Below are positions 3,778-23,403 of a stretch of DNA of 28,063 bases, one piece after another (positions within the stretch are counted from its first letter, which is position 1; every line of letters starts with the position of its first letter). Source of the stretch: a virus. Below the pieces are notes generated by a model that saw only the letters and a program-made list of their open reading frames with translations, made no database searches and was not told the origin of the DNA. The stretch lies in IMG/VR virus record IMGVR_UViG_3300026184_000052, positions 1 through 28,063 of that record. The stretch is one strand, 5' to 3'. Position numbers and translations under genes: made by a program.

Positions 3778-4403
3778 GCCGCCATCACCTCCACCTGCTG
3801 CATGGCCATCTCGGCCAGGGCCGCCGGGCTGCCGTTCTTGGGCATGGAACCGACGCCGGTACCCAGCTGCACCGGTTTGCTAATGCCGTTGGCCGCCAGC
3901 TCGAACAATGCCGCCGCCAGCGCGCGCATCAGCAGGATGTGGCGATCGCCCGCCGGCACCGTGGTGTTGGCCGCCTCGGGCGCCACGGTATAGGTGCCCC
4001 GATAGGTGTAGTAGTAGGTCGCCCCCAGGTCAGTGATCTGCGCCTGCGTCGGCGGCGGGTCCAGCACCAACTCCCGCGCCCCGCCGGCCTCCACCAGGCC
4101 CAGGCGCGGCAGCGGGGCCGGCCAGTTTGCATCCCAGGGCTTGCGCCGGCTGCGCTCGGTGTGGCCCCAGCGCGAGCTAAGCGGCGCGATCAGATCCGAC
4201 GGCGCCGGGTAATTGGTTTGATCGGCCACCAGGGTCAGCGAGTCCTGCACCACCCGCGGGCGGATCCGCGCCAGGTCCTGGGCCGCCAGGGTGAGGTGGC
4301 GATAAAAATCCTCGTTGGCGTTGCCGGTGAACTTGTTCGCGGCGTCCTTGAGCATACCCTTGAGGTCGGCCGCCAGGTCGGCTTGTGACATGGTGCCGGG
4401 CAT
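3774..4403 (-). CDS. Head-tail connector / adaptor-like protein
   Basis: A 209-aa protein. I choose the ATG at 4403, which makes a TGATG overlap with the gene upstream; GGGGA lies 7 nt before it. A second ATG four codons later is possible. N-terminal helices (LAADLKGMLKDAANKF, FYRHLTLAAQDLARIRP) are followed by beta segments with VADQTNYPAPSDLIAPLSS, a DPPPTQ turn and YYYTYRGTYTVAPEAA, then a helix (HILLMRALAAALFELAANGI). The YPAP-DL--PLSSRWG wording is typical for phage adaptor/neck proteins that bind the portal ring. Function is inferred from fold pattern and position. Confidence 0.6.
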   Translation of the reverse strand: MPGTMSQADLAADLKGMLKDAANKFTGNANEDFYRHLTLAAQDLARIRPRVVQDSLTLVADQTNYPAPSDLIAPLSSRWGHTERSRRKPWDANWPAPLPRLGLVEAGGARELVLDPPPTQAQITDLGATYYYTYRGTYTVAPEAANTTVPAGDRHILLMRALAAALFELAANGISKPVQLGTGVGSMPKNGSPAALAEMAMQQVEVMAA

Positions 4404-4801
4404 CAAGCGATCCCCGAGGCGAAGGCCGCCACGACGATACCGGAGGCGATCGCGCTCACCATCGACCAGATCAGGATCGCGCGCTTGGCGCTTGAGGTCA
4501 GGCGGGTGGCGTTTTCGATAGAGGTCTGCTCGAGTGCTCGCATGCGTAACTCGTTATCGTCGATCTGCTTTCCAATCCGGGCGACCGTCTCGCGCAGCGA
4601 CTTGATATCGCCATCGAGGCGGATCAGGTCCCGCAGCGCCTGGGTCAAGCCCCTTAAATCCTTTTTAATGTCACCGACATCGCCGCGCAGATCGCCTATC
4701 TTGGTGTCCAGTGCCTTAAATTCCGCGCTTTCCATCACCGACTGGGCCTTTGTTTTGTCAACCGATAACTGCTTGCGCTCACTTGCTGGCAGCCCTGTCA
4801 T
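4403..4801 (-). CDS. Coiled-coil protein with C-terminal membrane anchor (XhlA-like lysis accessory)
   Basis: A 132-aa protein starting at ATG 4801 by an ATGA overlap with the holin stop; longer forms of this frame read across the holin gene and are not real. After a short basic start it forms a long heptad coiled coil (DTKIGDLRGDVGDIKKDLRG to RIGKQIDDNELRMRALEQ). It ends in one hydrophobic segment (AILIWSMVSAIASGIVVAAF). Coiled coil plus C-terminal membrane anchor, right after holin and endolysin, resembles haemolysin XhlA-type accessory lysis proteins. A spanin role is less likely because no signal peptide or lipobox is seen. Confidence 0.6.
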   Translation of the reverse strand: MTGLPASERKQLSVDKTKAQSVMESAEFKALDTKIGDLRGDVGDIKKDLRGLTQALRDLIRLDGDIKSLRETVARIGKQIDDNELRMRALEQTSIENATRLTSSAKRAILIWSMVSAIASGIVVAAFASGIA

Positions 4802-5364
4802 ATCCCGACTTTTTTGCCGAACACCTTGTCCGTGGTGCGCATTGTGAAGTACCACACGCAAGGCGAATAGAGCGCCCCGGCGATGCCCATGTCCGGCCCT
4901 GCGAACACGGCGGCGGGCTCGCCTGGCGAGGCGCCGAGAAAGCTGTGCACGATCGCGATCGTGGTGGTAATGAACACGTAGATCGTGCCTGCCCAAAAGC
5001 TGCGCCGCGCCAGCATTGGGCGCGTGTGCTTCACATAATCATCGCCATGCGCGTACTCCGAGCGGATCGTCTCCATCGAGTCGGCGTGCATCTGCACACC
5101 GGCCTGCAGCTCGGCCTGCTTTTGTTCGGACTTAATGCGCGCGGCCTCGTTGGCGAGCTTTTCCAGCTCGGCCTGCTGCTCCGCCGGCATAGCCTTGACC
5201 ATCTGGTCGACGTGTTTTTGCGCCTGGTCGCCCGGCAGGTTGCGGACCTGCTCGACGATGTCCGCGGTCTTGTTGGCCACCTCTTTGGTGTTGCCGCCGA
5301 ACCAGGAGCCGGCCATCCGCAAAAGCGAAGGGCCGGCAGTCATTAATGCAGTCACAAGTCCCAT
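4798..5364 (-). CDS. Holin of the 3TM (gene-transfer-agent) type
   Basis: A 188-aa protein starting 4 nt after the endolysin stop. It has an amphipathic hydrophobic N-terminus (LVTALMTAGPSLLRMAGSWF), a long charged helical middle, and then the conserved RPMLARRSFWAGTIYVF entry into a membrane helix followed by a second hydrophobic segment (MGIAGALYSPCVWYF). The R-P-x-x-x-R-x-x-W transition is the hallmark of the 3TM holin family first named for gene transfer agents. It would permeabilise the inner membrane to release or activate the endolysin encoded next door. Confidence 0.75.
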   Translation of the reverse strand: MGLVTALMTAGPSLLRMAGSWFGGNTKEVANKTADIVEQVRNLPGDQAQKHVDQMVKAMPAEQQAELEKLANEAARIKSEQKQAELQAGVQMHADSMETIRSEYAHGDDYVKHTRPMLARRSFWAGTIYVFITTTIAIVHSFLGASPGEPAAVFAGPDMGIAGALYSPCVWYFTMRTTDKVFGKKVGI

Positions 5365-5368
5365 AGCG

Positions 5369-5896
5369 TTACCCGTTATGGATCAAATCCTTCCAATGCA
5401 CGCCCGGCTCCTGGATGTGCGGGTATTCCCGCTTGGCCGGCGACCACTCACCGGCCCAGTCAAAGCCGGCCAGCTGCGCGAGCTCGCCATAACCCACCCA
5501 CAATGAGGCCTCGTTCACGTCCTCGGTGCCGGGGTCGTCCAGCGTGCGCCACACCGGCTTGCCATCGCGCATCGGCACGCCGTCGATGGCATAGCCATAG
5601 TTATGCATCGATTGCCCGGGCCCGGCCCAGGTCACGATATGCCGGCCATACTGCGGGCCGACATCCATCAACAGCTCCGCCAGGTCCGGCCGGTGGTAAA
5701 CCTTGCGCAGCTCCAGGGCCTTGTGCTCGATCTCCTGCAGGCTGCGCCCATTGCGAAACAGCCGCGCCTGCTCCTCCTCCGAGCGGTGCATGCAATAGAA
5801 CAGCACATCGAGCCCCCGCTGAGTGAGCAGGTGCTGCAGGTGCTGCAACCGCTCGCGGGTGCGTTCCTTCAGGGAGTTGGGATCGCGGCTTGGCAT
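5369..5896 (-). CDS. Endolysin, M15-family D-Ala-D-Ala / L-Ala-D-Glu peptidase
   Basis: A 175-aa zinc peptidase. Metal-binding motif SMHNYGYAID gives H98 and D105, and REYPHIQ gives H160; the FDWAGEW segment places the likely catalytic acid near residue 150. This is the layout of VanY/T5-endolysin peptidases. No signal peptide is seen, so export would depend on the holin encoded immediately downstream. GGAG lies 6 nt before ATG inside the end of the upstream gene. The length is normal for a single-domain endolysin with no cell wall binding module. Confidence 0.9.
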   Translation of the reverse strand: MPSRDPNSLKERTRERLQHLQHLLTQRGLDVLFYCMHRSEEEQARLFRNGRSLQEIEHKALELRKVYHRPDLAELLMDVGPQYGRHIVTWAGPGQSMHNYGYAIDGVPMRDGKPVWRTLDDPGTEDVNEASLWVGYGELAQLAGFDWAGEWSPAKREYPHIQEPGVHWKDLIHNG

Positions 5897-5899
5897 GCG

Positions 5900-6424
5900 C
5901 TACTCCGCGGCGTTGACGGCCTGCTCGTGGCGGCGCTCGATCTCCGCGTTGACCAGCGCGATCTTGCCCTCGTCGCCCTGGAACACATCGAGCTGCGCGA
6001 TGAGCTCCTCGTCGCCCATCGTCTGCAACAGCGCCACCAGCTCGTCGGTCTCGGTGGCCTCCTGGGCGCGGTTCAAACGATCCTCGGCGAAGGCCTCCAT
6101 CAGGTTCTTGCGCGGTTTAGCCTTGGCGCCCTCGGCCGCCTCGAGCTTCTCCAGCTGCGCCACGGTAAGGCCTGGCAGCTTGCCCTTGATGTCGTTAATG
6201 CTGTTGTCCAGCAGGCTCAACAGCTGGGTGTCGTCGTCCTGTTGTGGTGGCGCCACCAAGGTCGGGGCCTTGGGTTTGCCATCCGGTCGAGGGGAACACT
6301 TATCATAGTGCTTGAAGGGCACCAGGTCGGAGTCGACCTCCCGGGTATCACCGGGGCGGATCATCTTGTTGCCGATATGGATCGCCTTCGCGGTGTCGTT
6401 ATAAAGCGCGACAATCTTGCCCAT
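5900..6424 (-). CDS. Hypothetical structural-operon protein with LEM/HeH-like segment
   Basis: A 174-aa protein with a strong ribosome binding site (GGAGG, 7 nt before ATG). The N-terminus (ALYNDTAKAIHIGNKMIRPG) resembles the small beta domain of DUF7210-like proteins. A Pro/Gln-rich linker follows, then a helix-turn-helix-like segment (LPGLTVAQLEKLEAAEG) that looks like HeH/LEM helices found in phage head-completion proteins, and an acidic helical tail. It lies just after the capsid gene behind a strong terminator. A role in head decoration or completion is possible but not shown. Confidence 0.6.
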   Translation of the reverse strand: MGKIVALYNDTAKAIHIGNKMIRPGDTREVDSDLVPFKHYDKCSPRPDGKPKAPTLVAPPQQDDDTQLLSLLDNSINDIKGKLPGLTVAQLEKLEAAEGAKAKPRKNLMEAFAEDRLNRAQEATETDELVALLQTMGDEELIAQLDVFQGDEGKIALVNAEIERRHEQAVNAAE

Positions 6425-6496: not shown

Positions 6497-9082
6497 TTAG
6501 CGATTGCTCGCGCTGTAGGCAATGACGGAGGTGAAGCGATTGCGGATCGGATCGGGCACCTTGATGGCGCTGTATTCCTCACCATAGGCCTGCTTTTGCC
6601 CCGTGGGCTTGCCGGTGCTTGAGTCCACCGCCTCAAACGGCTGCCCCGTCATAAAGGGCTTGGCGATGGTGTAGGCGCAGGTCCCGCGCTGACCCAGGAG
6701 GATCCGCTCGTCGCCCAGGTCGGATCCCGGGACATCCGAGCTAAACGCCGGGATGCCCTTCACCATCTGCAGGTTCCCCATGCTCGTGGTGTCGGTGCCG
6801 TTCTTCTTGCTCTGCGCCTCGAACTGCCGGGCATTGGTGCAGGTGTCGTTGAGTGTGGCGCTCATCAACTGGAAATCCGGCTCAACGAAACGATCCGACA
6901 TCATCGTCGCCTTGCGGCCACCGATGGCGCGTAGCAGGCCATTGAGGTGCAGATCCAGATCGGTGCTGCCGTTGTCGGTGTCGAATTTGACGATGTTGGT
7001 CGCATAGTCATAGCTGATGGTATCGGCGCTGGCGGTGGAGCTCGGGGTCACCGGAGAGCCGGTTTGATCCACGAACTGCACATAACCCAGGTTGTAACTG
7101 GTCACCCGGTAATAGGTGCCCGCTGACTGGGTGCCGGTGCCGTCGTACTCGCTGATCGCCGAACCGTTGAGCTTGACCGTGATCGGGTTCGACTCCGAAC
7201 CGATGGCGTTGCCCTCCAGGTCGCGATTCTGATGCGGCCGCACGATGGGGAACTGGGCGGTCTTGATGGTGCTGGTGGCGCCATCCAGCTGCGCGTCCAG
7301 GTCCTCGTCGGTAATGGAGGCCGCCAGGTAGGAGTCCGCGGCCCGCTGCATCGTGTTGAGGATGGCGATGGTCAGCAGCTCGCGCATATAGCGGGAGTTG
7401 GTGGCCACGTTGCGGGCCAGGGCATCCCAGTCGATGCGGCTGGCGCGCGAGAAGTGGATCACCTCGTTGCTCAACAGATAGGCCAGCTTGCGGGCCACGA
7501 TGTAGGCGGTGTCCATCTTCTGCTGCACGCTGGCGCGGTGGATGGGTTGGCCTTCATACACGACGCCCTGGTTATACACGGCCGATACGTCGCGCAGCTC
7601 ATAGGGGATCTGTGTGGTCGCCTGCGCCTGCGGGTCGGTCATGGTATTGACCAGCTGCAACACGTCGAGATTGGCCAGCACCTCGCGAATCACCGCACGT
7701 TGCACGCCCACCGGCAGGTTGGTGTCGCCCACGCCGGTGGTGCCGCCCGCCAGCATCTTGTGCTCGTTGACCAGGCGCGGGGCGTTGAGCTTGTCGAACT
7801 CGGCCAGCACCTTGGTGATGAAGGGGGAGTCCTTCTCGGGCACCGCGATCTCGCCGGAATGAAAAGCGGAGGTCTCGCGCAGGTGCTTCTGGTAGGTCTC
7901 CGCCAGCGACTTGATCTCGTTTTGATGGCTGACCTCGATATGAACATGACCGCCCGGGCCCTGGCCCTCGAAGGCCATGTCGGCGAGTTTCTTCTGCGCC
8001 ACCATGGCGTTGCCGATATCGATCTGATGCTGGGCCAGCTTGGTGACCTGCTCCTCGGTCATCTCGGCGGTAATGAGATCGGAGGAGTCGAGCTTCTTGC
8101 GTTGATCCTCGCTCAGATCACCGAGGCCCTCGGCCTCGTCGAGCAGTTTCTTGAACTTATCGACATTGGCCTGGCGATTCTCCTCGAGCTTCTTGCGCTC
8201 CTCGGCCTCCTGGGTGCGCATGTCGGCCATCAGTTTCTTGACCTGCTCCTCGCTCATGCCGCCCTGGGCGGGGTTAACCGAAAGGTTAATCACGGGATCC
8301 TTGCCTTCGTTGCCGTCCTCGGCGAGTTGTTTGGCCAGGTTCTCGCCCGACTCGATAAAACTCTCCATCAGGGCTTTCTGTTGATCCTCATCCGCCAGGG
8401 TCTTGCCGGTCTTTTCAAAGCCGGCCACCAGCTGATCGATGATGCCCTGGCTGAGCTTTTTCTCTGCCAGGCGCTTGCGCAACGTGGTAATAAACTTTTC
8501 CATCGTTTTCTCCAATTCGTTTTTGATCTGGTTCGTGACGCGGTCGCTCAGATAGGTGGGGGCATCGCCGAGGCCATCCTCGGACAGTTGCACCGGGTCC
8601 AGGCGCTTGATAACGGGGCGCGTCGTCAGGGCCGCCCCCAGCAGGGTGGGGCCGTGAATTTTGCGATCCTCATTGTCCTGCCAGTTCTCGTGAAACTCTG
8701 CGGACAGGTAAATAAATCCCTTTTGTGTGATGGATTCGATCCCATAGTCCGTGAGCTCCACCTCCCCCCGTAACTTGTTCCCATCCAGGAAAAGCCGGGT
8801 AAAGTAACCGGCGGCGCCATTGCCAGGATTGTGCGCGACATCCAGCGCGACCCGTTGGCCGAACACGCCGGCCTCAAAGTTGCGCACCATCGACAGCAGC
8901 ATCGGGCGCGTGATGTCGAACTCGCCATACCGCGGATCGTAGAAAGTCCCCGTCCGGGTCACCGTCACCACCGCGGTGCGTTTGCCTTGCGCCAGCGTCC
9001 GCGCGTCCACGTGGTCGCTGTAAAAGCGCCTCACCCCATCCAGGGTGTTGCTGTCGAGTTTAAAATGTCGCGCTGCTTGCAT
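6497..9082 (-). CDS. Fused prohead protease, scaffold and major capsid protein
   Basis: An 861-aa polyprotein. I start it at ATG 9082 because GGGAG lies 6 nt upstream; a 19-codon longer form would begin inside a terminator hairpin. Residues 1-165 are a Mu gpI-like phage protease: H84 in ALDVAHNPG, S127 in FIYLSAEFHENW, and the GPTLLGAALTTRPVI signature. Residues about 195-375 are a charged coiled-coil scaffold. Residues about 385-861 are an HK97-like capsid domain, from HQNEIKSLAETYQKH through NLPVGVQRAVIREVLANLDV to the C-terminal RNRFTSVIAYSAS. These parts are usually separate genes. A good internal ribosome binding site precedes Met194, so a shorter scaffold-capsid product without the protease is likely, as with nested lambda C/Nu3. 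A terminator follows. Confidence 0.88.
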   Translation of the reverse strand: MQAARHFKLDSNTLDGVRRFYSDHVDARTLAQGKRTAVVTVTRTGTFYDPRYGEFDITRPMLLSMVRNFEAGVFGQRVALDVAHNPGNGAAGYFTRLFLDGNKLRGEVELTDYGIESITQKGFIYLSAEFHENWQDNEDRKIHGPTLLGAALTTRPVIKRLDPVQLSEDGLGDAPTYLSDRVTNQIKNELEKTMEKFITTLRKRLAEKKLSQGIIDQLVAGFEKTGKTLADEDQQKALMESFIESGENLAKQLAEDGNEGKDPVINLSVNPAQGGMSEEQVKKLMADMRTQEAEERKKLEENRQANVDKFKKLLDEAEGLGDLSEDQRKKLDSSDLITAEMTEEQVTKLAQHQIDIGNAMVAQKKLADMAFEGQGPGGHVHIEVSHQNEIKSLAETYQKHLRETSAFHSGEIAVPEKDSPFITKVLAEFDKLNAPRLVNEHKMLAGGTTGVGDTNLPVGVQRAVIREVLANLDVLQLVNTMTDPQAQATTQIPYELRDVSAVYNQGVVYEGQPIHRASVQQKMDTAYIVARKLAYLLSNEVIHFSRASRIDWDALARNVATNSRYMRELLTIAILNTMQRAADSYLAASITDEDLDAQLDGATSTIKTAQFPIVRPHQNRDLEGNAIGSESNPITVKLNGSAISEYDGTGTQSAGTYYRVTSYNLGYVQFVDQTGSPVTPSSTASADTISYDYATNIVKFDTDNGSTDLDLHLNGLLRAIGGRKATMMSDRFVEPDFQLMSATLNDTCTNARQFEAQSKKNGTDTTSMGNLQMVKGIPAFSSDVPGSDLGDERILLGQRGTCAYTIAKPFMTGQPFEAVDSSTGKPTGQKQAYGEEYSAIKVPDPIRNRFTSVIAYSASNR
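8501..8513 (-). promoter_or_regulatory. Internal ribosome binding site and start (Met194) in the capsid fusion gene
   Basis: GGAG at 8513-8510 lies 6 nt before an in-frame ATG (8503-8501), exactly at the boundary between the protease and the scaffold. Starting here would give a 668-aa scaffold-capsid protein. This is the position where a separate capsid gene would normally begin. Confidence 0.6.
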
Positions 9083-9096
9083 GTATCGCTCCCAAC

Positions 9097-9130
9097 AAAA
9101 AAGCCGGCGGCGCTTTCGCGCGGCCGGCTT
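9097..9130 (-). terminator. Intrinsic terminator just before the capsid fusion gene
   Basis: On the minus strand AAGCCGGC pairs with GCCGGCTT around an inner GCGC-GAAA-GCGC stem-loop with a single mismatch, followed by six T. It is the last part of the 104-bp repeat, and only about 14 nt remain between its T-tract and the capsid start, too little for a promoter. Confidence 0.85.
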
Positions 9131-9200
9131 GGTCACCATTTGCTCGCTCAGTCTGAACTCTAGCCCCCCACTAGAGACATAAACAGGGCCGGGGCTGTCA
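9097..9200 (-). repeat. 104-bp direct repeat, copy 1 (left border of accessory cassette)
   Basis: Nearly identical to 14424-14527 in the same orientation. Differences are one A/G change, a 3-nt indel with a neighbouring change, and three bases in the loop of a small CTCTAG/CTAGAG hairpin. It begins on the minus strand with the stop codon of the 106-aa gene (TGACAGCCCCGGCCCTG), continues through the hairpin and a GCGAGCAAATGG stretch, and ends in the terminator. Confidence 0.9.
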
Positions 9201-9518
9201 CTCTCCGACCACCATCAGCTGGATCGGGCTCTTGAGTAACTGATTCGCGCCAAACTGGGCGGACAGCTGCAGCGAATAGTCCCCGGCCTGATCGATATCA
9301 CCGGCGGCGGTGGTGTATGTGGCATATTGATTCGCGTTATAGGTCACCCCATCGACCACCAGGTCCTGGCCGCCGACCTGCAGGCCGTCGCTGGTTGTTT
9401 TTTGTATGCTCGACCCATCCGGCCGGCTAATGGTCAGGGTCAGGGCGGTAGCTAACGACAGGTCGTATGCCAGATCAATCACCACGATCTTGCCGTATTC
9501 GCCTTTCTGATAGGCCAT
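9198..9518 (-). CDS. Hypothetical beta-rich virion-type protein
   Basis: A 106-aa protein with GGGAG 6 nt before ATG. Alternating strands (KIVVIDLAYDLSLATALTLT, YSLQLSAQFGANQLLKSPIQ) and an AAGDIDQAGDYSLQ turn resemble the small beta-sandwich found at the N-terminus of BppU-like baseplate/fibre proteins. I cannot name a family. It is the last gene of the repeat-flanked cassette, and its TGA stop is the first base triplet of repeat copy 1. Confidence 0.65.
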   Translation of the reverse strand: MAYQKGEYGKIVVIDLAYDLSLATALTLTISRPDGSSIQKTTSDGLQVGGQDLVVDGVTYNANQYATYTTAAGDIDQAGDYSLQLSAQFGANQLLKSPIQLMVVGE

Positions 9519-9519
9519 C

Positions 9520-10806
9520 TCAGACTCCCGTAATGTTGGTCATCGGCGCGGTTAGGATCTCGTAGGCAACCACCGTTTGCACGCTGGAGGCGGTGACGGC
9601 CGAGACCGTAAGATTTATTCCGACATCCCCCGCGATGCTGTATTGACCGGCCACGCCGTATTGCATCGAGGCGGCTGGCGTCAACGACATGAGCGCGCTG
9701 CCTAGGAGGCTCTGATGCGTCGCATAATTCACCGAGCCGTTCACGCCCAGCGAGATAAGAGAGCCGCCGCTAATCGAGTGCTGCCCGGCCTGGCTCGCCT
9801 GCATTGTCGCGTTGACCGACATCTGCATGATGACGTCGGTCTGCATGTAATAATGGGATGCCTTGACCATCGTCGCCCCGGCGCCCAGCGTCAGGGATAC
9901 GGCCCCGGAAAAGGTGTTAATCACATTATATTGCAGCGTCGCCGACACATTGATTGTCGCCGAAACAGCGGCGGATATACTATGGTGCGATGATTTTGAT
10001 AACGTCCCGGAAGGGGTGACAGATAAATTTACATTGCCCGCGATACTATGCGCCCCGGGGGTTTGGAATAGCGCACCAAACCAGTCATTGTGCAGGGATT
10101 GATACTCAGTATCGGACAGCGGGCGGTTGAAGATCGCAATAAGATGATGCTTGCCGGGGAGGTTGCCGCTGCCGCTCAACCCGCCGATATATTGATAATC
10201 GCTGAAGCTGAAGGACCCGCCCGCCGCCGATCCCACGTTCGCCAATGAGCCGGACTCCAAACCGAACAGCACGTCCGAAGTGCCGCCATTTATCCAGTTG
10301 CCGGCGAACGAGAACTTGGTCGACAGATCAGAAGGCAGCGTCTGCGTCGAGCTCGACATCCGGTAGCCCGACCCGACGTACCACGTAATATAGTCGGTGT
10401 CATTCTTGCCGAAGAACGCGTTAGACCCCCCGTTGGCGATCAGGCCGTTGTACGCCCCACCCGCATCCATGCCGGCGCAGGCCGCGAACACACCGAAACC
10501 ACCTTGGCTTGTGCCGCCGGGCACCGTTTGCGCGGCTGAATGTCGGATGCCGTAAAAATTGTAAGTGCCGTTGGCTAATGTTTGAAAGTAATTAAAACTG
10601 GTTCCTTTCCAGGTTGCCTGCCCCACCACGACAGGATTATCAACGCTCATGTCGGCATTGCCGGCGTCGTCAGCCCAGGTATCAACACCGTTCCACGTTG
10701 AAAATTGACCAGACACCCACTCGCGCAGCGTCACGCCATCATCGTCGACCATGTAACAGGCGATCAGATCGGCGGCCAGCCCGGTGCTTTTTAACGTATA
10801 ACCCAT
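9520..10806 (-). CDS. LamG-like domain protein with seven tandem 22-residue repeats
   Basis: A 428-aa protein. Residues about 10-245 look like a concanavalin/LamG jelly roll: DLIACYMVDDDG opening, a WKGTSFNYFQ strand, and the typical closing LIAIFNRPLSDTEYQSLHND. Residues 252-408 are seven tandem units of 21-25 residues, each like (H/Q)HSI-G-(V)-L-V---. Such domains bind glycans, and repeats of this kind form shafts in phage fibres, so a receptor-binding or decoration protein is likely. GGAGG lies 10 nt before ATG. It sits 3 nt after the 886-aa gene, whose N-terminus carries one more copy of the repeat. Confidence 0.75.
   Translation of the reverse strand: MGYTLKSTGLAADLIACYMVDDDGVTLREWVSGQFSTWNGVDTWADDAGNADMSVDNPVVVGQATWKGTSFNYFQTLANGTYNFYGIRHSAAQTVPGGTSQGGFGVFAACAGMDAGGAYNGLIANGGSNAFFGKNDTDYITWYVGSGYRMSSSTQTLPSDLSTKFSFAGNWINGGTSDVLFGLESGSLANVGSAAGGSFSFSDYQYIGGLSGSGNLPGKHHLIAIFNRPLSDTEYQSLHNDWFGALFQTPGAHSIAGNVNLSVTPSGTLSKSSHHSISAAVSATINVSATLQYNVINTFSGAVSLTLGAGATMVKASHYYMQTDVIMQMSVNATMQASQAGQHSISGGSLISLGVNGSVNYATHQSLLGSALMSLTPAASMQYGVAGQYSIAGDVGINLTVSAVTASSVQTVVAYEILTAPMTNITGV
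9583..10053 (-). repeat. Tandem protein-coding repeats in the LamG gene
   Basis: Seven units start near residues 253, 275, 297, 318, 343, 364 and 389 (HSIAGNVNLSV, HSISAAVSATINV, NTFSGAVSLTLGA, HYYMQTDVIMQMSV, HSISGGSLISLGV, HQSLLGSALMSLTP, YSIAGDVGINLTV). Period is 21-25 residues with alternating hydrophobic residues. DNA-level identity is low, so the array is old or diversified. Confidence 0.75.
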
Positions 10807-10809
10807 TTT

Positions 10810-13470
10810 TTAAAGACCTCCGGCCGGCACCCTGTAGACCCAAACATTTTGATCGGTTGGGTTATTAATAACGGCAAAGGCCTTGATGCTGCTGATATAA
10901 CGGAAGCGGCCATAGGTCCCTCGCGCGCCCACGGCGCTCGGCGTTGCCCCGCCGGCGCCGTTCGTGACCTCGACCCACGTCCATGACGCATTGGCGTTCA
11001 GCGATCCATCCGGATTGCGGTAGTCGGCTGGCGGGTCCAGTTTGTAAATCGCAGACCCACCGTTATAGCCCACCAGGGTCTTGCCAACCGGCTCGTATTC
11101 AAATCCGATATTTGTCGCTGTCTTTAGCGGCCCGGTATAGTTCGTCGTGATCTCCACCAGATCCCCGGCGCGGCCGTTGTCGGTATCGATGTCCCATACC
11201 ACGAGGCGATCAGACCCAACATCATGCACCAGCATGATACGGCGCCCAGGGTCGAGCGTTATCCCGTCCGTGTTGTAATCGGTTCCGGAGCTTGATGTGT
11301 TGTATGGCCCGGACCATGTATTTGTCTGCGGATTGAAGCTCCAGAGCGTGTCCGCCTGGCGCAGCTTCACACACCAAACCAGTCCGGTATACGGGTCATA
11401 TTCACAGCCACCTGCCGGCGCGGCGATATCCGGAAAATTCGGGTGCGTCCCTTCGGCGAGATAGCTGCCGCCGACATCGGCCTCAGAGTTGAACTTAAAC
11501 GCCGCGACTTCGCTGGAGCTGACCACGCCGCTATCGGTGACCCTCCACACGTAGGCGCGTCTCGGGGCAAATAGCTCCCTACCCACACCGCCGCCCAGGT
11601 CAGGGATGTAACACATGTTGTCATACATGTGCGCCGATGAAGGCTTGCCGTCCGAGTAGTAATGCTTGTTGAACTCGTTCTGCCAGTTGGTGATGACGGT
11701 CTCTCCGGCCAACGCCGTACCTTTATGTGATGGCGGATCGTATTTACTACCTCCCTGACCGTCGCTAGCATTACCGAACCAGTTCCACTTAGGATTCTCA
11801 GACGTGAAGGGGCCAAACTCGAATATCGTATTCTGTTGGCTACCATGGTGGCCGCCGCAAAAACCAATCACCAAATAATTATCGCGCGCAACCGCGCCAT
11901 TCCAATTTTCTATCACCCCGTCGTGATAGGTCGCCGTCTCTGTCGAGAAGTCCCAATCGCCGGGATTGGCGAAGGCCGTCCAAGCCGTGTTGGATTCAGG
12001 GTCGACATCGCTCCACGGGTTGCCTACGGCAACCCAGGTGCCTTCGTTGGCGCTGGTCAGCCAGGAGGGGTCGTTCGCATTGTATTCAATGGCCGGGTCG
12101 TTGGCACCGTTCTCGAACAGCCGCCACACGTACTGCAACTCTCCCCGATTACGCTTTAGCCATATCTGATTGCTCAGCCACTCGGTATCCATAAAGTGGT
12201 GAATTTCGTTACTCTGCGCAAGGGTCGATCCGTCATAGTCAAACTTGACCGCCTTAAAATGCTCAATGGCGGAAGTAATGAACGATGTATCGCCTGTCCA
12301 CTTAAACGCCACCATCAAAATGCCGATCAAATCGAGGGTGTATACGGGATCGATGCTGGCGTCGTTGCAGCTAAATCCATGAATAGGGTTCAGGTTAACG
12401 TCATGGCCGAACCATATCCCGGTGAAATTACATGGCGATAGCAGACCAAATTCCTGTATATAGCGGCCCATTTTTACCGCTTGATCTCGGATGGTCGCCC
12501 GCTTCGCGGTATCCGTAATCGTATGGTGCGCGTAATAGTAGGCATCCCCCAGCAGGCCGATGTGCAGCGGAATGATCACGCGGGAACCTGAGGCATACGC
12601 ATTGGCGCCTGCCCGGCTGTCCGTCTCCGAGGCGTTCAGGAAGTGCATCCCCGCGGCGCCGGCCGTGACGGTCATCTCCTCCCAGCCGGGCGACTGCAGC
12701 CACAAATCTAATACGGTGTCACGAAACGCGATATCGTTAACGTCGCCGGTTGCCTGGGCCAGTCGGGTCGCCGCGTACAACAATCGCACCGCGCGCCTCG
12801 GCTGTATCCCCGACATCGAATAACTGCCGGCAACAGGCATGTTTGTGCCGTCGCCCTTGTTGTAAACCCACCAGGCCTTGGCGTCTGCGACGATAGCCCG
12901 CGCGGCTGTGATCGCCGCGGAATTGCCGCCCGGGGTTTGCTCGTGGAGCGTGACCAGATCCCACGCCCACATGTGATCGAGCCCCCAGGATCCGTTGATA
13001 TCCGACTCGGCCTGATACCCGGTGCTGGTCTGGCGCTGATTGATCCAGTAATCGGCCCATGCGTCCGCGAAGCACTGATATTCAGCGTCGCCATAGCGGT
13101 CATACTGGTGCAGATACGTCCACAGGTCCGGCCCCTCTGAATCGTAATGCACATCGGGGTCGCCGATGGTAAACGGATTACCGCCACCCGGGCAGGTCTT
13201 TTGATAATAGGGCGTAAAATTCAGATCGATGGGGTCGCCGGGGGTCACGCCAAATTGCGCCGAATTGGCGGACCAGTTGACCCACCCCTGCGCGACGTAG
13301 AAGTCCAATTCATCTTGAAGCGAGGGAAAGGCCGCCTCGGTCCCTATTGGCGAGTAAGTCTCAGCGAAGGCGAGGTTTGATGCGCTGACAGTAAAGGAAA
13401 GGGAGGCCGCGCCGGCAATAGCGTAAGATGCCGGCGCGATCGCTTGGCTACCCTGGACCTTGACTCCCAT
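10810..13470 (-). CDS. Large virion-type protein: helical toroid domain plus kelch beta-propeller
   Basis: An 886-aa protein. Residues 15-40 (YAIAGAASLSFTVSAS) match the repeat unit of the neighbouring LamG protein. Residues about 60-480 contain paired helices (RRAVRLLYAATRLAQATGD, LHIGLLGDAYYYAHH, LDLIGILMVAFKWTGD) and many Trp, Asp and His residues, the look of an (alpha/alpha)6 carbohydrate-active toroid. From about residue 530 kelch-type blades appear (DNYLVIGFCGGHHGSQQNTI, CEYDPYTGLVWCVKL, LWSFNPQTNTWSGPYN). No signal peptide is needed for a virion protein. A polysaccharide-binding or -degrading surface protein is the best guess; I cannot assign catalytic residues or a glycoside hydrolase family. 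It has no collagen-like or beta-helix spike signature. Confidence 0.7.
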   Translation of the reverse strand: MGVKVQGSQAIAPASYAIAGAASLSFTVSASNLAFAETYSPIGTEAAFPSLQDELDFYVAQGWVNWSANSAQFGVTPGDPIDLNFTPYYQKTCPGGGNPFTIGDPDVHYDSEGPDLWTYLHQYDRYGDAEYQCFADAWADYWINQRQTSTGYQAESDINGSWGLDHMWAWDLVTLHEQTPGGNSAAITAARAIVADAKAWWVYNKGDGTNMPVAGSYSMSGIQPRRAVRLLYAATRLAQATGDVNDIAFRDTVLDLWLQSPGWEEMTVTAGAAGMHFLNASETDSRAGANAYASGSRVIIPLHIGLLGDAYYYAHHTITDTAKRATIRDQAVKMGRYIQEFGLLSPCNFTGIWFGHDVNLNPIHGFSCNDASIDPVYTLDLIGILMVAFKWTGDTSFITSAIEHFKAVKFDYDGSTLAQSNEIHHFMDTEWLSNQIWLKRNRGELQYVWRLFENGANDPAIEYNANDPSWLTSANEGTWVAVGNPWSDVDPESNTAWTAFANPGDWDFSTETATYHDGVIENWNGAVARDNYLVIGFCGGHHGSQQNTIFEFGPFTSENPKWNWFGNASDGQGGSKYDPPSHKGTALAGETVITNWQNEFNKHYYSDGKPSSAHMYDNMCYIPDLGGGVGRELFAPRRAYVWRVTDSGVVSSSEVAAFKFNSEADVGGSYLAEGTHPNFPDIAAPAGGCEYDPYTGLVWCVKLRQADTLWSFNPQTNTWSGPYNTSSSGTDYNTDGITLDPGRRIMLVHDVGSDRLVVWDIDTDNGRAGDLVEITTNYTGPLKTATNIGFEYEPVGKTLVGYNGGSAIYKLDPPADYRNPDGSLNANASWTWVEVTNGAGGATPSAVGARGTYGRFRYISSIKAFAVINNPTDQNVWVYRVPAGGL

Positions 13471-13479
13471 TGCCCGCCA

Positions 13480-14121
13480 TTAGGCGACGGTGTTCGATAG
13501 GTCAATATCGTAGGTGTCGTTCTCGGCAATGGTATAAGGGCCGTTGCTGTCCACCTCGATGACCGCAATGCGCGCCGTGGTGCCGGTCGTGTTCACGAAG
13601 TACCCCTGCACCGACCCGGTCCAGCCGCCGACACCGCCGGTAAAGGTCTGCTGGGCATAGGTCCAGGTGTCCGAGGGGCTGTTTGTCCAGCTGCCGTCGG
13701 TCAGTGTTTTTCGTGCATACCCGGTGCCGCTCGGCTCGGTGATGGCCGCCTCGGTGATCGTCTCGTCCGGGGCCACATTTGTGAAAAGGCCCAGCTGCAG
13801 ATCTGTGCCGCGGTCGGTGGTGACATTGTTAAACAACCATTGCCCGACAAGGGTCTCGCCCTCGTCAGGCACAAAGCCGGCCATCGCATAGATCTCCAGC
13901 CTCAACCGCTCCAGCACGCGATCCGGGGTTGGTTCCTCGATGGCGCGCTGCAATGCCATGCGCAGCATCCCGCGCATCGCGATGGACAAGGCCGCCCCCG
14001 CATCGAGACCGGCCAGGCGCAACGTCCAGTAAAACGAGAAGATCGCGAACATCCGCAAGGCATTGAACAAGGCGACGGGGGATGCTTTCCGGGTTGTAAA
14101 ATTCATGGCGATGGTGTTCAT
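13480..14121 (-). CDS. Hypothetical virion-type protein with C-terminal phage fibre-like domain
   Basis: A 213-aa protein. I choose ATG 14121, with GGAG 6 nt upstream; the frame is open 15 codons further. The N-terminal 95 residues are helical and rather hydrophobic (FNALRMFAIFSFYWTLRLAG), possibly an attachment segment. The C-terminal part (LVGQWLFNNV, LQLGLFTNVAPDETITEAAI, TGYARKTLTDGSW) matches a module common in phage and cyanophage structural proteins (GLFTN...P....T...TGYAR). It belongs to the repeat-flanked cassette. Confidence 0.65.
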   Translation of the reverse strand: MNTIAMNFTTRKASPVALFNALRMFAIFSFYWTLRLAGLDAGAALSIAMRGMLRMALQRAIEEPTPDRVLERLRLEIYAMAGFVPDEGETLVGQWLFNNVTTDRGTDLQLGLFTNVAPDETITEAAITEPSGTGYARKTLTDGSWTNSPSDTWTYAQQTFTGGVGGWTGSVQGYFVNTTGTTARIAVIEVDSNGPYTIAENDTYDIDLSNTVA

Positions 14122-14162
14122 GGGCTGCTCCGTTTTTGTAGCGATCCAGGAATCCCCGCGGA

Positions 14163-14411
14163 TCACTGCAGGGTGTACTCGATATGTCCGGTCGCTGGGT
14201 TTTTCTTTCCGACGATCTCGTCGAGTATTTCAACCGCGTGGCCGCGCTGCGTCATCATGCGTTTATACCCTTCGGGGTTGTCGCCGGCCTTTGCCTCGCC
14301 GCGATAGCGCATGGTGAGAGTCGCCGCCCCTGTTTTTGGGTTGATCAAGGCGTTGGGGTTGTTTTTATCGCGACCGCGCTGGCCGACGGATAGATATATA
14401 TGCTGTGCCAT
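14163..14411 (-). CDS. Hypothetical 82-aa protein, first gene of the accessory cassette
   Basis: Start ATG 14411 has GAGGA 5 nt upstream and lies just after the terminator of repeat copy 2; a 19-codon longer form would begin before that terminator. The protein is basic (GRDKNNPNALINPKTG, RYRGEAKAGDNPEGYKRMMT). No family recognised. Its neighbours suggest an accessory virion or assembly role. Confidence 0.6.
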   Translation of the reverse strand: MAQHIYLSVGQRGRDKNNPNALINPKTGAATLTMRYRGEAKAGDNPEGYKRMMTQRGHAVEILDEIVGKKNPATGHIEYTLQ

Positions 14412-14423
14412 TTTTATCCTCGT

Positions 14424-14459
14424 AAAAAAAAGCCGGCGGCGCTTTCGCGCGGCCGGCTT
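14424..14459 (-). terminator. Intrinsic terminator before the accessory cassette
   Basis: Same hairpin as at 9097-9130 (AAGCCGGC...GCCGGCTT with inner GCGC-GAAA-GCGC) followed on the minus strand by eight T. It would stop transcription coming from the portal/MuF genes before the cassette. Confidence 0.85.
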
Positions 14460-14527
14460 GGTCGCCATTTGCTCGCAGTATGAACTCTAGCCCCCTGGTA
14501 GAGACATAAACAGGGCCGGGGCTGTCA
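14424..14527 (-). repeat. 104-bp direct repeat, copy 2 (right border of accessory cassette)
   Basis: Copy of 9097-9200 in the same orientation. It starts with the TGA stop codon of the 62-aa zinc-ribbon gene and ends in the terminator ahead of the 82-aa gene, so both copies occupy a complete intergenic space. Confidence 0.9.
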
Positions 14528-14713
14528 GGTGGCGTAGCTGATCGGCACCCTGACCCATGCCTTGCATTTACACTTGGCCAGCCCGGTGGCCACGTTCACG
14601 CAGCGCGCCGTGATCACCGAGCCGTTGAACACCTGCCGGGTGCAGTGCGGGCAATAGACCGGCAGGTGCACCGAGGCGTTGATGGGGGTGGCGTTATTGC
14701 TTCTGCTTATCAT
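14525..14713 (-). CDS. Small zinc-ribbon protein (Com-like)
   Basis: A 62-aa protein starting at ATG 14713 inside the end of the 47-aa gene (20-nt overlap). Cysteine pairs CPHC and CKCK with an extra Cys between them (ARCVN) form a likely zinc ribbon, as in the small Com-type proteins of Mu-like phages. Whether it regulates translation or helps assembly is unknown. Its stop codon opens repeat copy 2. Confidence 0.6.
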   Translation of the reverse strand: MISRSNNATPINASVHLPVYCPHCTRQVFNGSVITARCVNVATGLAKCKCKAWVRVPISYAT

Positions 14714-14837
14714 CCATTTCCTTTCGCAGATCCTCGGTCTCTTTCTCCGGACCATAAAAAGATTCGATCGCCGGCGGCTTGGGCGGCGGCGGCAGGTCTT
14801 TCGGCGGCTTGTCCAGCTGTTTGTGTTTGTCGGTCAT
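14694..14837 (-). CDS. Small proline- and lysine-rich protein, 47 aa
   Basis: Starts with an ATGA overlap at the MuF stop (14837) and ends at a TAA (14694). The sequence is highly charged and proline-rich (KPPKDLPPPPKPPAIE) with an acidic/basic helix behind it. No family recognised. The tight coupling on both sides and the absence of conflicting frames support it as a real small gene. Confidence 0.6.
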   Translation of the reverse strand: MTDKHKQLDKPPKDLPPPPKPPAIESFYGPEKETEDLRKEMDDKQKQ

Positions 14838-16720
14838 TTGACGAACTTCGCCTCGTATTGCTGTTGAATGTAATCGCCGACCTTTTTGGCCAGCGGCCGC
14901 GGCGTCGGGTTGTTGCGGTATTCGCTCCAGGCCTCGGCGATAAACTCGGCGGCATTGGTGCGTGCGTAACGGCTAAGCTCGAGGCCATCCGGATCCCGCC
15001 GCAGCCAGTCCCGGAATAATCGCGTGATCTCCGGATCGCCGCGCGCCCCGACCAGCTTGTCGAGCTCGTGGCCGAGCTCATGATCAATTATAGACTTCAC
15101 GGAGTCCGCGCCCACCGGGTGGAAGCGCGTCTCCGTGGCCCGGCTGAGGGATTTTTTCAGTTTCGCCAGGTCGCTGCCCCATTTTTTGTTGATGGTCACC
15201 CCGGCGATCGGTGCCTCCGACATCGAATAGGCCCAGACATTACCGGGCACCCGCGGCTTGCTGACGAAACGCCGCGCCCATTTGCGCAGCTCATCGAGGG
15301 GGCGATCGGGGTAGCGCGCGCTCAATGCGGAGAGGTATTCGCCGACCTTTACATCATACCAGTGCCGGAAGGCGTTCTGGCTGGTGCCAATAAACTGCAG
15401 GCCGCGGCGCAGCTCCGGGAACTCGTTCAGGTGTTCAAATATAGCCTGATTCCATTGGTTGGCTGCCTCGACCTCGATGCCGGAATAATCCGCCACGTCG
15501 GCCAGGTCGTTGTCGGTTGCCCACTTGGAGGCCTCGCTGGTGGTCTTTGCGGGCTTGAACCCCGCCGAGGAAGGCAGCCGGGTGCGGTGCTTGGTGATAG
15601 GCGTCACCTGGTCGGTGCCCTCGTTACTGCCCCAGCTGGCGGGATCGAGGCCGCGTTTTTCATACTTCTGTCGCAGCACCTTCCAGGGGGTGGCGATCTC
15701 GTTTTCCTTGAGGATCCCCTGCTCGAGCGCGAAGCGTTTTTTACGCGAGCCGAGCACCTGCTCCTGCACCCCGGGCGGTTGCTTGTTCAGCCAGCCGATG
15801 CGGTCCTCCTTGCCGTCCTTGTCCGCCTGGGTGATCTCGTCTTTGAACACGATCTCGATATAGCTCAGCGTGTTGGGGTGCGCCGGCCAGGGGGTGCGGT
15901 TGCGGTCGGGGTACACGCCCGGGCCCAGGCCGTAGCGGTTCACATGGGCGTGCATGTCGCAGATATCCGGCTCCGGATGGCGCGGGCTGAGCAGGAATTT
16001 CCAGCCGCCGAAGTCGTCGATCGCCTGGCCGGCCATCATGTAGGCCTCGCCGTGGGCGCGGTTGAGCTCGGTGCGCATCAGCCGCAGGGCGTTGTCGCGC
16101 GGGTTGCGATCGCCGCGAAACAGCCCGCCCACCTGGCTGGCGATGGCGTCGGCATTGGCGGCGTTCATCTTCGATTGCAGATCCCGGCCCACCGTCTCGC
16201 CGCGGGCCATCAGATCGCTGGCGGCCTGGCTGGCGCCGTGGCCCTGGATGACCGAGCGTTGAATCGTTTCGCTGACCAGCCGCTTGGTGTGGTTGTCGAT
16301 GTTCCAGACCCGATCGGAGAGCTGCAGGCCGTCGGCGGCGACAAAGTTATTCACGAACCGCACCGCATCCTCCGCCGCGCGAGTGACGAAGCCGGGCGCA
16401 TCACTGAACGGCTGCGCCCCGATCTGCGCCGACTCCTGGAGGCCGCTTTGCAGCAGGTCGTCCCGCGACTGGCTGAGCTGATCGAGCCGGTTCTGCACCT
16501 GCCCCAGCAGTTGCTGCATCACCTCCAGGCGCACGCTGCCGTCGCTGCCCGCGTAGTGGCGGATCTGCGCCTGGATGTCGTCGATGGCCTGATTGTAAAT
16601 GCCGCTCAGCGCATCCAGCTGGCGCCGGTCCAGCCGATTGCCCGCCGTGCGCGCCGCCGCCGAGGCGCGCTTGATGCGGGCCTTGATCGCGGTGCGCAGG
16701 TTTTCGGCTGGGACGGCCAT
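14834..16720 (-). CDS. MuF-type head morphogenesis protein with C-terminal HExxH zincin domain
   Basis: A 628-aa protein directly abutting the portal stop. Residues about 1-200 are helical. Residues about 215-292 carry the SPP1 gp7/Mu F signature (LRLMRTELNRAHGEAYMMAG, then WKFLLSPRHPEPDICDMH and PWPAHPNTLSYIE); the usual closing CRC is lost. Residues about 400-628 form an added domain with HELGH at 547-551 and AAEFIAEAWSEY at about 590-600, a gluzincin-like HExxH plus downstream Glu. MuF proteins enter capsids in few copies and in some phages carry C-terminal effector domains injected with DNA. A host-acting or processing peptidase is inferred. ATGA overlap joins it to the 47-aa gene. Confidence 0.83.
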   Translation of the reverse strand: MAVPAENLRTAIKARIKRASAAARTAGNRLDRRQLDALSGIYNQAIDDIQAQIRHYAGSDGSVRLEVMQQLLGQVQNRLDQLSQSRDDLLQSGLQESAQIGAQPFSDAPGFVTRAAEDAVRFVNNFVAADGLQLSDRVWNIDNHTKRLVSETIQRSVIQGHGASQAASDLMARGETVGRDLQSKMNAANADAIASQVGGLFRGDRNPRDNALRLMRTELNRAHGEAYMMAGQAIDDFGGWKFLLSPRHPEPDICDMHAHVNRYGLGPGVYPDRNRTPWPAHPNTLSYIEIVFKDEITQADKDGKEDRIGWLNKQPPGVQEQVLGSRKKRFALEQGILKENEIATPWKVLRQKYEKRGLDPASWGSNEGTDQVTPITKHRTRLPSSAGFKPAKTTSEASKWATDNDLADVADYSGIEVEAANQWNQAIFEHLNEFPELRRGLQFIGTSQNAFRHWYDVKVGEYLSALSARYPDRPLDELRKWARRFVSKPRVPGNVWAYSMSEAPIAGVTINKKWGSDLAKLKKSLSRATETRFHPVGADSVKSIIDHELGHELDKLVGARGDPEITRLFRDWLRRDPDGLELSRYARTNAAEFIAEAWSEYRNNPTPRPLAKKVGDYIQQQYEAKFVK

Positions 16721-20159: not shown

Positions 20160-21120
20160 CGATATAATTCCCCTCGCCGTCGATGGTTCGGGATGGCCGC
20201 GCCGGGCTCGGGTGGCTCTCGTGGCTGTCGTTGATCAGCTCCAGCAGCTGGCGCTGGCCTTGCTCCAGCTTCTGCCGGTAGGCCTGCTCCTCCTCCGCCT
20301 CCTGGTTCTTTTGATCGATATAGCCCTGCATGATCTCCTGCTCGTTCTGCACCTTGGGCGTCATCTCCAGGTCGCTGAGGTTCATCGCCAGCTTTTGCAC
20401 GTAATCGATCAGGGTCTTGAGCAGCGGATTAGCTTCATATTTGTATATCTGCTGCAATTCGCCGGTATGTTCGTCGCACCATTGAGCCAGGTGGAACGTG
20501 CCCTCCTTATCGTAGTACCACTCCGGCGATTTAAGCGTGACCCCGAGCTTGGCCACCTCCATAATCATCCAGTCGATCAGCGAGGCCAGCGCCGCGTGCT
20601 TCTCGGCAAATAGGTCCATCAGCAGGTTCGGATCCTTGCGCTCAAAAGCCGCTTGATGGCGCAGCATCACCTCCGCCCGTTTGATGCAGGCCTTGTATTC
20701 CAGGCAATCCTTGTCTGCCAGGTGCTCGCAGCTGTCACATTGAGGGTAGTGGCCCGGCCGGGCAGGGAAGTATTTCAGGGTTTTGGCGGCCCCCATGTGC
20801 TTGACCGCGTTCATCCGCGTGATCAGCGCCTCCTCCGGGGTGGGGTGGCCCTCCAGGTTTGCCGCGCTCGCAGCCTTCCCCTCCGGCGTTTTCGGCCCTG
20901 TCGCCTGGGTCCAGGCCTTGAATAAACCCCTCTCCCACGCCGCCTGTGGCGCCTCAGCGCCACATTCCGGGCACTCGGCGTAGTAATTCCACGGATGCCA
21001 GTCCTGCTCCTGCGCCTCCTCCGTCCGCCCCGGAGGCGATTTGAACTTGTGCCCGCAGGACCTGCAGGCGAAAGAAATCTCAGCCCTCGGCTGAGTATTG
21101 TCCGGGCGCTCCTGTGCCAT
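20152..21120 (-). CDS. Probable terminase small subunit with two zinc-binding modules
   Basis: A 322-aa protein from ATG 21120 (a TTG six codons upstream is possible; neither has a strong ribosome binding site). A zinc ribbon is formed by C19/C22 (CRSCGHKF) and C50/C53 (CPECGAE). A second Cys cluster is C128/C131/C139/C145 (QCDSCEHLADKDC, YKAC). In between is GPKTPEGKAASAANLEGHPT, similar to the GPKTPEGKxRSAANALKHG wording of DNA-binding small-terminase-like proteins. The C-terminus is a long coiled coil (EAEEEQAYRQKLEQGQRQLL). Position just before terL supports recognition of phage DNA for packaging. Confidence 0.62.
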   Translation of the reverse strand: MAQERPDNTQPRAEISFACRSCGHKFKSPPGRTEEAQEQDWHPWNYYAECPECGAEAPQAAWERGLFKAWTQATGPKTPEGKAASAANLEGHPTPEEALITRMNAVKHMGAAKTLKYFPARPGHYPQCDSCEHLADKDCLEYKACIKRAEVMLRHQAAFERKDPNLLMDLFAEKHAALASLIDWMIMEVAKLGVTLKSPEWYYDKEGTFHLAQWCDEHTGELQQIYKYEANPLLKTLIDYVQKLAMNLSDLEMTPKVQNEQEIMQGYIDQKNQEAEEEQAYRQKLEQGQRQLLELINDSHESHPSPARPSRTIDGEGNYIDG

Positions 21121-21146
21121 CGTCCAGATAATGGCCAATGAGCCGC

Positions 21147-21171
21147 GACATAAACAGGGCCGGGGCCGTCA
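21147..21171 (-). repeat. Third, partial copy of the repeat motif
   Basis: A 25-bp stretch matches the stop-codon end of the 104-bp repeats with a single mismatch (minus strand TGACGGCCCCGGCCCTG then TTTATGTC). It lies just upstream of the small terminase gene. Here the related terminator is placed before, not after, the motif. Confidence 0.75.
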
Positions 21172-22909: not shown

Positions 22910-23403
22910 AGTTCAATATTATGTTTTTTCAATACGCGGTCGATGTGGCGCACGCTGATATCCTCACATAGAACCTCTTTTAATTTTTGCCTAATCTCGG
23001 GGCCCGAGAGCTTTTTCTCCTCTCGCAATGTGACGATAAAGCGATCCCTTTGCAGCTTGAAAAATCGATATAGATTGGGCACCCGAACCCTGGGATCTGA
23101 TGACTCCATGTAACGTGTCATCACCTCCCACATGCCGAGGAACTGGTCGACGCCAAAGGTGTCGGCAATCTCCAGCCACATATCGTTGAGCCCGATGGCC
23201 TGCAGGTCGTCGAGGCGCGGGTCGCGCGTCATCGCGCCGTAAGCGGCGCGCGATTTTTTAGTGCAGACATCCAGGTACCTACCCCCCCATCCGGCAGTGC
23301 GGTCCCTGGGTTGCCGAGCCCCCACCCCCTCTGTGCGTGTGTCTGTGTCGTGCTCGCTGGTAGTGATTCCGTCAGTTGAGTTGCCGCTCTGTGCTGAGGT
23401 CAT
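22906..23403 (-). CDS. Mor-like DNA-binding regulator
   Basis: A 165-aa protein from ATG 23403 with AGGAG 8 nt upstream; the longer frame lacks a better start. After a disordered Ser/Thr/Gly-rich N-terminus comes a helical part (LNDMWLEIADTFGVDQFLGM), a short RVRVPNLY strand, and a C-terminal helix-turn-helix-like segment (IRQKLKEVLCEDISVRHIDR). This order (helical dimer domain, V/I-P strand, HTH) resembles the Mor/C activator family of Mu-like phages, though identity is too low to be certain. It could alternatively be a recombination directionality factor because of its ATGA coupling to the serine recombinase. Confidence 0.55.
   Translation of the reverse strand: MTSAQSGNSTDGITTSEHDTDTRTEGVGARQPRDRTAGWGGRYLDVCTKKSRAAYGAMTRDPRLDDLQAIGLNDMWLEIADTFGVDQFLGMWEVMTRYMESSDPRVRVPNLYRFFKLQRDRFIVTLREEKKLSGPEIRQKLKEVLCEDISVRHIDRVLKKHNIEL

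Follow-up and report, generated by a model that had tools for sequence, protein, structure and literature searches.

What can be concluded when two near-identical repeats enclose a block of genes inside the head operon of a phage? The question is posed by a stretch of viral DNA of 28,063 nucleotides (nt), IMG/VR virus record IMGVR_UViG_3300026184_000052, positions 1 to 28,063, which as a whole is called the window here. Five of its genes lie as a cassette between the MuF and zinc-ribbon genes and a gene for a fused head protease and major capsid protein, and a preliminary description had taken the 104-base-pair (bp) repeats at the two cassette ends for the limits of a discrete unit of gain and loss. 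Comparison with related phages suggests instead that the repeats are probably regulated late-promoter modules. Because each repeat is read in this way, the five genes would be an extra late transcription unit, placed in an accessory hotspot that is bordered by promoters.

A conserved element at terS, the cassette borders and the tail region

The five genes and their order are as first described, the second gene coding for 213-216 amino acids (aa) according to the start codon chosen. The repeats at the cassette ends are 93% identical over 104 columns (BLAST, E 1.9e-40); on the coding strand each opens at the TGA that ends the gene before it, crosses a GC-rich hairpin followed by a T-run and ends just before the next start codon, again in agreement with the preliminary description. 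The title of that description called them exact; they are near-identical, with ungapped blocks of 51 bp at 98% and 52 bp at 92% separated by a 2-nt indel. A generic terminator scan omitted both hairpins, the stem of which holds one internal mismatch, and a scan allowing one mismatch lists both; they also appear in the computed folds of the two copies. A third, partial copy that the description had not mentioned (25 bp at 96%, E 7.7e-7, positions 21147-21171) lies directly upstream of the gene that is called terS here from its position and a weak phrog_361 match (E 0.006). Because the same element stands at terS and in the tail region as well, the presence of repeats at both cassette ends does not alone show an origin by recombination. 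The exact pattern of the window's own element had no match in viral contigs. In both long copies a leader ATG opens a frame (9083-9139 and 14412-14468) that reads on across the hairpin in phase with the following gene; since the leader of one related locus, L123, contains a similar frame with no start codon (by eye), the frame is probably a coincidence.

A first search for relatives of the capsid protein gave three, and portal and capsid profiles gave the best 80 of 173 and 51 viral loci plus 59 loci from bacterial genomes. Prophages in which the element was found include those of Dasania sp. GY-MA-18 (L144), Nitrosovibrio sp. Nv6 (L146) and Methylobacillus caricis (L182). Among 189 loci with any profile match, 111 hold MuF and a downstream capsid gene once those with identical 600 nt before the capsid gene are removed; near-duplicates persist among them (e.g. 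L072/L082/L085), and counts over these loci are not counts of independent events. A repeat within the genome (21-143 columns) was found in 12 of the 111, pairing the pre-capsid leader with a site after the zinc-ribbon gene or an internal cassette gene. These 12 are what is left of 15 loci for which a repeat was printed, L084, L137 and L145 having been excluded for short or local matches only; in L050 it is the leader that matches rather than the core. A further locus, L204 (51 columns), brings the number to 13.

A first profile, seeded with 25 leader copies and none from terS, nevertheless recovered six copies at terS, some 1 kb above terL (E <= 0.007), and, weakly, two in the tail region (E 0.19 and 0.47). 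After three iterations, during which the terS copies joined the profile, 95 unique matches lay on the coding strand against 3 on the opposite strand (E <= 5), and they occupy four kinds of site, namely terS, the positions downstream of the zinc-ribbon gene and upstream of the capsid gene, and the tail region. An exact-pattern scan of the viral collection, with a pattern derived from the alignment, returned 10 stretches, five on known contigs (L015 and the contigs of L038, L076, L080 and L081) and five new ones. Two of the latter clearly belong to the family: L203, with the element at terS and the ATG at offset 31, and L204, with one copy 1.2 kb above the gene for c106, the product of the fifth cassette gene, and a second just before the capsid gene. 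In L202 the element precedes a DNA_circ_N tail gene (E 9e-30), and L196 and L201 hold a match and no family gene.

The geometry of the element is fixed. In 75 copies, namely the coding-strand matches at E <= 0.5 anchored on the right dyad arm, with L001-L003 left out as copies of the window, the consensus is a 24-bp dyad, G(A/C)CA-N16-TG(T/G)C. The 4-bp arms are fully complementary at spacing 16 in 31 of the 75 and at spacings 12-15, 17 and 18 in 0-2, and they partly co-vary, the commonest pairs being GACA/TGTC (21 copies), GCCA/TGGC (6) and GCCG/TGGC (6). A at offset 18 and T at offset 22 are each conserved in 78%, and a -10-like hexamer starts at offset 17 in 25/75 copies, against a background of 1.2% per position. 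The terS ATG occupies offsets 29-31, the predicted +1, in 22 of 23 terS copies (some of them near-duplicates, such as L040/L042; the exception is L168), where it opens a frame of 312-328 codons. Since this ATG sits at the predicted +1 in the window and in 21 further loci, phages of this family may make a leaderless terS mRNA. A hairpin with a T-run follows 15/33 pre-capsid, 4/11 internal and 3/23 terS copies, and 30/375 random windows.

The proposed module thus reads, in order, as a 24-bp dyad overlapping a weak -35, a -10-like hexamer, a short leader that in the two long copies carries a terminator-like hairpin, and the next start codon. Late transcription would start from the element, a phage protein would act on the dyad, and the leader hairpin, which may terminate, attenuate or protect, would attenuate or stabilise the transcript. 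The extra unit would have been inserted between two head units at a hotspot whose borders are promoters, and recombination between copies could swap or delete cassettes.

An accessory hotspot and its contents

From the stop codon of the MuF or zinc-ribbon gene to the capsid gene, the gap in the 111 loci ranges from 82 to 7419 bp, being below 500 bp in 41, 500-900 bp in 8 and at least 900 bp in 62; in the window it is 5443 bp. Relatives without a cassette exist: of the loci with a zinc-ribbon gene, 13 show a gap below 500 bp, nine of them of 153-198 bp. The preliminary description had suggested a search for cassette-free alleles with a single repeat copy; in three of these nine (L014, L041 and L144) the model found one copy of the element. 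Precise deletion between the long copies of the window, which would suit their geometry, would leave about 118 bp from the zinc-ribbon stop to the capsid gene; no cassette-free allele of this phage itself was found.

A portal tree of 108 loci, of which 100 carry a label, requires 16 changes between filled and empty, against a mean of 31 when labels are shuffled, and because of this difference the state is judged to be inherited, yet repeatedly changed. In three close pairs, L098/L102 (capsid 99% identical), L105/L120 and L170/L193 (Vibrio prophages), homology ends 12-16 nt past the zinc-ribbon stop and returns about 130 nt before the capsid gene, and the content between is unrelated; in two others, L098/L099 and L100/L128, slot content is partly common. 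Contents differ among phages while the borders are constant, and a conserved sequence stands at the exact module border. By these sequence comparisons the zinc-ribbon/MuF-to-capsid gap is a family-wide accessory hotspot with sharp borders. At the level of the family, then, the idea of a discrete gain/loss unit holds, with empty short-gap loci and unrelated content elsewhere, and relatives do not all carry the same genes; what has to be given up is the view of the repeats as merely cassette ends, since promoter-like copies also stand at terS and in the tail region.

The cassette has a GC content of 57.9%, against 61.0-64.0% in the neighbouring gene blocks; c216, the product of its second gene, is encoded at 61.1%. 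The C-terminal part of c216 weakly resembles podophage GP4 fiber I gp80 (PF23140, E 0.0076, below cut-off) and matches phrog_17792, of unassigned function, at E 0.001. For the 886-aa protein no relative was found in phage records, PDB sequences or viral contigs (the contigs searched by six peptide patterns), and its single-sequence structure model is of too low a quality for use (pLDDT 34). The small c106 protein is the last gene product before the capsid leader in 8 loci, including the window and L204; six aligned homologues are 37-45% identical to that of the window, and its domain matches, MG2 (E 0.02) and TcaA (E 0.004), are below cut-off, with one PDB chain at E 3.9. The four other cassette genes of the window had no match among 274 cassette proteins at E 1e-3. 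In the relatives inspected the long cassette genes vary from phage to phage, showing by eye lectin-like heads with repeat stalks, or a beta-helix-like form; domain matches there, below curated cut-offs, are Disaggr_repeat (E 1e-5, L004) and Polysacc_deac_1 (E 0.003, L032). The cassette of G001 (L004 + L010) was pieced together from both ends of a contig that is classed as linear, joining being assumed. The cassette probably encodes receptor-binding or fibre-type virion proteins that vary between phages, accompanied by a small conserved one. The capsid-surface location and glycan binding put forward in the preliminary description are conjectural, searches for domains in cassette proteins having given sub-threshold matches only. 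In L194 (MT855965, Microcystis phage vB_MaeS-yong1), the slot at 3926-6149, between a MuF-like coding sequence (CDS) and a 'Mu-like prophage I protein' CDS, holds among others a CDS annotated as DDE transposase, with neighbours on the opposite strand.

On the minus strand of the window, which looks like part of a longer genome, the gene order is tyrosine integrase, a 178-aa protein, serine recombinase, terS, terL, portal, MuF, zinc ribbon, the five cassette genes, the fused protease-capsid gene, further genes, endolysin, a weakly holin-like gene and the major tail protein gene (phrog_807, E 6e-57). The terL product is 57% identical to a CDS of MT855965 annotated as DNA packaging protein Gp17 and matches phrog_5989 at E 0.001. 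The protease-capsid gene is one frame of 861 aa, with phrog_328 in its N-terminal part and phrog_10, major head protein (E 2e-5), and phrog_22848 further on; three aligned relatives also have a single frame. A Com-like identity of the zinc-ribbon protein, suspected by eye, received no support from Pfam. Two recombinases are encoded, the large serine recombinase (21293-22909) directly before terS and the tyrosine integrase (23662-24669). The C-terminal parts of MuF vary among relatives (window 14834-16720, L010 1427-3157, L006 4500-8966): that of the window has a HELGH motif by eye, with ATLF at E 0.056 only and phrog_324 at E 2e-28, that of G001 is a different sequence, and in L006 the frame is of 1488 aa. 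We take this variation to resemble the swapping of MuF effector domains. Coordinates of the principal features are collected in the table.

Table. Positions of the element copies, the cassette and associated genes in the window
Feature	Position	Strand	Remarks
Repeat copy A, late-promoter-like element with hairpin leader	14426-14527 (feature 14424-14527)	-	between zinc-ribbon gene and cassette gene 1
Copy A, parts	dyad arms GACA 14523-14526 and TGTC 14503-14506; -10-like TAGAGT 14484-14489; hairpin and T-run 14424-14459	-	
Repeat copy B, same module	9097-9200	-	between last cassette gene and protease-capsid gene
Copy B, parts	dyad arms GACA 9196-9199 and TGTC 9176-9179; -10-like TAGAGT 9157-9162; hairpin and T-run 9097-9130	-	
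Third copy, core only	21118-21171	-	dyad GACG 21167-21170 / TGTC 21147-21150; -10-like CATTAT 21128-21133; terS ATG 21118-21120 at predicted +1
Cassette gene 1	14163-14411	-	82 aa; no family match
Cassette gene 2 (c216)	13480-14130	-	216 aa, or 213 aa from next ATG
Cassette gene 3 (c886)	10810-13470	-	886 aa
Cassette gene 4 (c428)	9520-10806	-	428 aa; no family match; by eye lectin-like head, then short repeats
Cassette gene 5 (c106)	9198-9518	-	106 aa; conserved last gene before capsid leader
Left boundary gene, zinc-ribbon protein	14525-14713	-	CxxC ... CxC motif, by eye
Right boundary gene, fused head protease and major capsid protein	6497-9082	-	PHROGs, alignment
Candidate late regulator	22906-23442	-	178 aa, upstream of terS; predicted C-terminal helix-turn-helix

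Promoter, scar, operator or mobile element

For the phage protein that would act on the dyad, the 178-aa protein is the one candidate considered here, an activator encoded outside the window being possible. A homologue at 33% identity is annotated 'middle operon regulator' in MT855965. The structure model (pLDDT 82) places the C-terminus over the DeoR DNA-binding domain for 44 residues at a root-mean-square deviation of 1.3 and Z 6.6, a score that, being under 8, may reflect merely a common arrangement; Foldseek gave no match to the model at E 0.001, and Mor was not among the structures listed, an absence that does not speak against it. No Pfam match was obtained for the 16 members of its family. 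Identification as Mor or C is not supported, a profile comparison with Mu Mor and C giving a probability of 0.7% and PHROGs no support.

An alternative that we consider unlikely is that the repeats are scars or boundaries of recombination, the cassette having come by homologous exchange or by tandem duplication of the leader and being losable between the copies, with the promoter-like core incidental. The two long window copies speak for this, for they are near-identical even in the hairpin loop and spacer, unlike those of L032 and L093, where the terminators differ between the two copies; because of this likeness a recent duplication or gene conversion of the window pair is likely. The identity of element copies points the same way, averaging 0.60 within genomes (38 pairs) and 0.44 between genomes (2737 pairs), with the partner closer than every same-class copy from other genomes in 24 of the 38 pairs, but coevolution with one regulator would equally give such similarity within genomes. 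Two observations count against a scar: the core occurs at terS and in tail regions as well, at sites that border no cassette, and in 47 of the 62 long-gap loci the pre-capsid leader gave no repeat with any other part of the gap (E 1e-3).

Somewhat less probable again is an element that is no promoter at all, acting as an operator bound by a repressor, or as an RNA hairpin or termination signal recognised in the transcript past the stop codon. The fixed -10 hexamer and the terS ATG at the predicted +1 are the geometry of a promoter, whereas the long dyad overlapping the -35 position is operator-like. The left dyad arm abuts or shares bases with the stop codon of the gene upstream in 18 of the 44 copies that are pre-capsid or internal, and many leader copies are followed by the terminator-like hairpin; at terS, however, just three of 23 copies have it. 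Folding is likewise divided: the capsid leader of the closest relative, L004 (2459-2630), folds far better than shuffled sequences (z -5.0) and that of L006 somewhat better (z -2.1), unlike window copies A and B, which do little better than shuffles (z about -1.1), and no known structured RNA was matched at the Rfam gathering score. That the cassette is a transposon-like or integrase-driven unit, with the repeats as its ends or att sites, seems very improbable. Direct repeats at both ends and a serine recombinase gene adjoining the third copy would suit it, but no recombinase or transposase was recognised in the five cassette genes (Pfam, PHROGs), the repeats are a conserved element elsewhere in this genome and in relatives, and contents change between phages while the borders stay.

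The late-promoter reading, which we prefer, has observations of its own to contend with. A generic promoter scan of the window did not call the sites in the repeat copies, and a terminator-like hairpin right after a promoter would need read-through or antitermination. One or two arm pairs of the dyad are broken in the 4 copies with GCCG/TGTC and the 4 with GCCA/TGTC among the 75, and the pre-capsid copy of L204 has a short leader with no terminator-like hairpin (by eye). The candidate regulator does not track the element, occurring in 6/14 loci with it and 18/38 without, and no homology to Mu Mor or C was detected in it. Nor is the element seen everywhere: between MuF or zinc ribbon and capsid it was found in 11/41 short-gap and 25/62 long-gap loci (10 of them with at least two copies), and at 29/105 terS regions. 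At the profile sensitivity used, it is missed in many loci.

Known systems and meaning

In the PR'-tR' late leader of phage lambda, which is controlled by Q antitermination, an intrinsic terminator comes within tens of bases of the promoter, upstream of the late genes. The promoter-like core and terminator-like hairpin ahead of late genes here are of the same form, but 20/23 terS copies have no terminator-like hairpin within reach. Phage Mu appears to be the closest model for the late-promoter reading. Its C-dependent late promoters are those of lys, I (head), P (tail) and mom; their activator site lies above the -35 or overlaps it, and the -35 and -10 sequences are non-consensus (PMC4461284). 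As in Mu, several similar promoters would stand over late genes, here at terS, cassette, capsid and tail, including the operon of the head protease, and a dyad to which a protein would putatively bind lies on or above a weak -35, the -10 following at a constant distance. The head gene order of Mu is also much alike: terminase, portal, minor head protein, G, I (head protease) and T (capsid). The present element was derived from these loci alone; it differs in that one copy is fused to the terS start codon and leader copies often carry a terminator-like hairpin, and in that the candidate regulator has no detected relationship to C or Mor.

The cassette itself resembles the morons, or regions of genomic plasticity, of Mu-like Pseudomonas phages, described as accessory genes between conserved neighbours, with their own promoter and terminator and a deviant base composition (PMC4378225). 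It too lies between genes that are adjacent in relatives (gap below 500 bp in the 13 zinc-ribbon loci), and departs from its neighbours in GC content. By sequence a promoter-like core and a terminator-like hairpin stand at both ends, and would be a putative promoter and terminator of its own; unlike a moron, it comprises five genes under an apparent phage late promoter that is repeated at both borders. In the Pseudomonas study, no common flanking recombinase target was recognised and the mechanism of acquisition was termed mysterious (PMC4378225). Boundary sequences have been proposed for phage mosaicism as short conserved sequences at module borders that possibly guide homologous recombination (PMC3029335). 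Here, too, a conserved sequence stands at a module border; it differs in being promoter-like as well, and recombination at it is putative. No description of the element or of the hotspot was met in a literature search limited to listings and abstract openings.

A fuller model can be offered tentatively, and we regard it as possible rather than likely: one dyad-controlled late promoter would serve terS (as a leaderless mRNA), capsid and tail genes across a widespread family of proteobacterial phages, and its copies at the slot edges would be a handle of homology by which receptor-binding units, kept under phage late control, are swapped or dropped with the head genes left intact. A shared late-type promoter would also argue against expression of the cassette from a repressed prophage.

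It has long been asked how phages come to gain accessory genes at particular sites. In the present case a regulatory element that is repeated and can be recognised forms the border, which makes the question testable, in that both the junction and the product of loss (about 118 bp) can be predicted, and the expression of incoming genes would come from the border itself. For this phage family the element offers a way into the control of late genes and leads to the prediction of leaderless terS transcripts. Blocks of genes seem to come and go at sites marked by the duplicated promoter-like element, related phages having other genes or none there.

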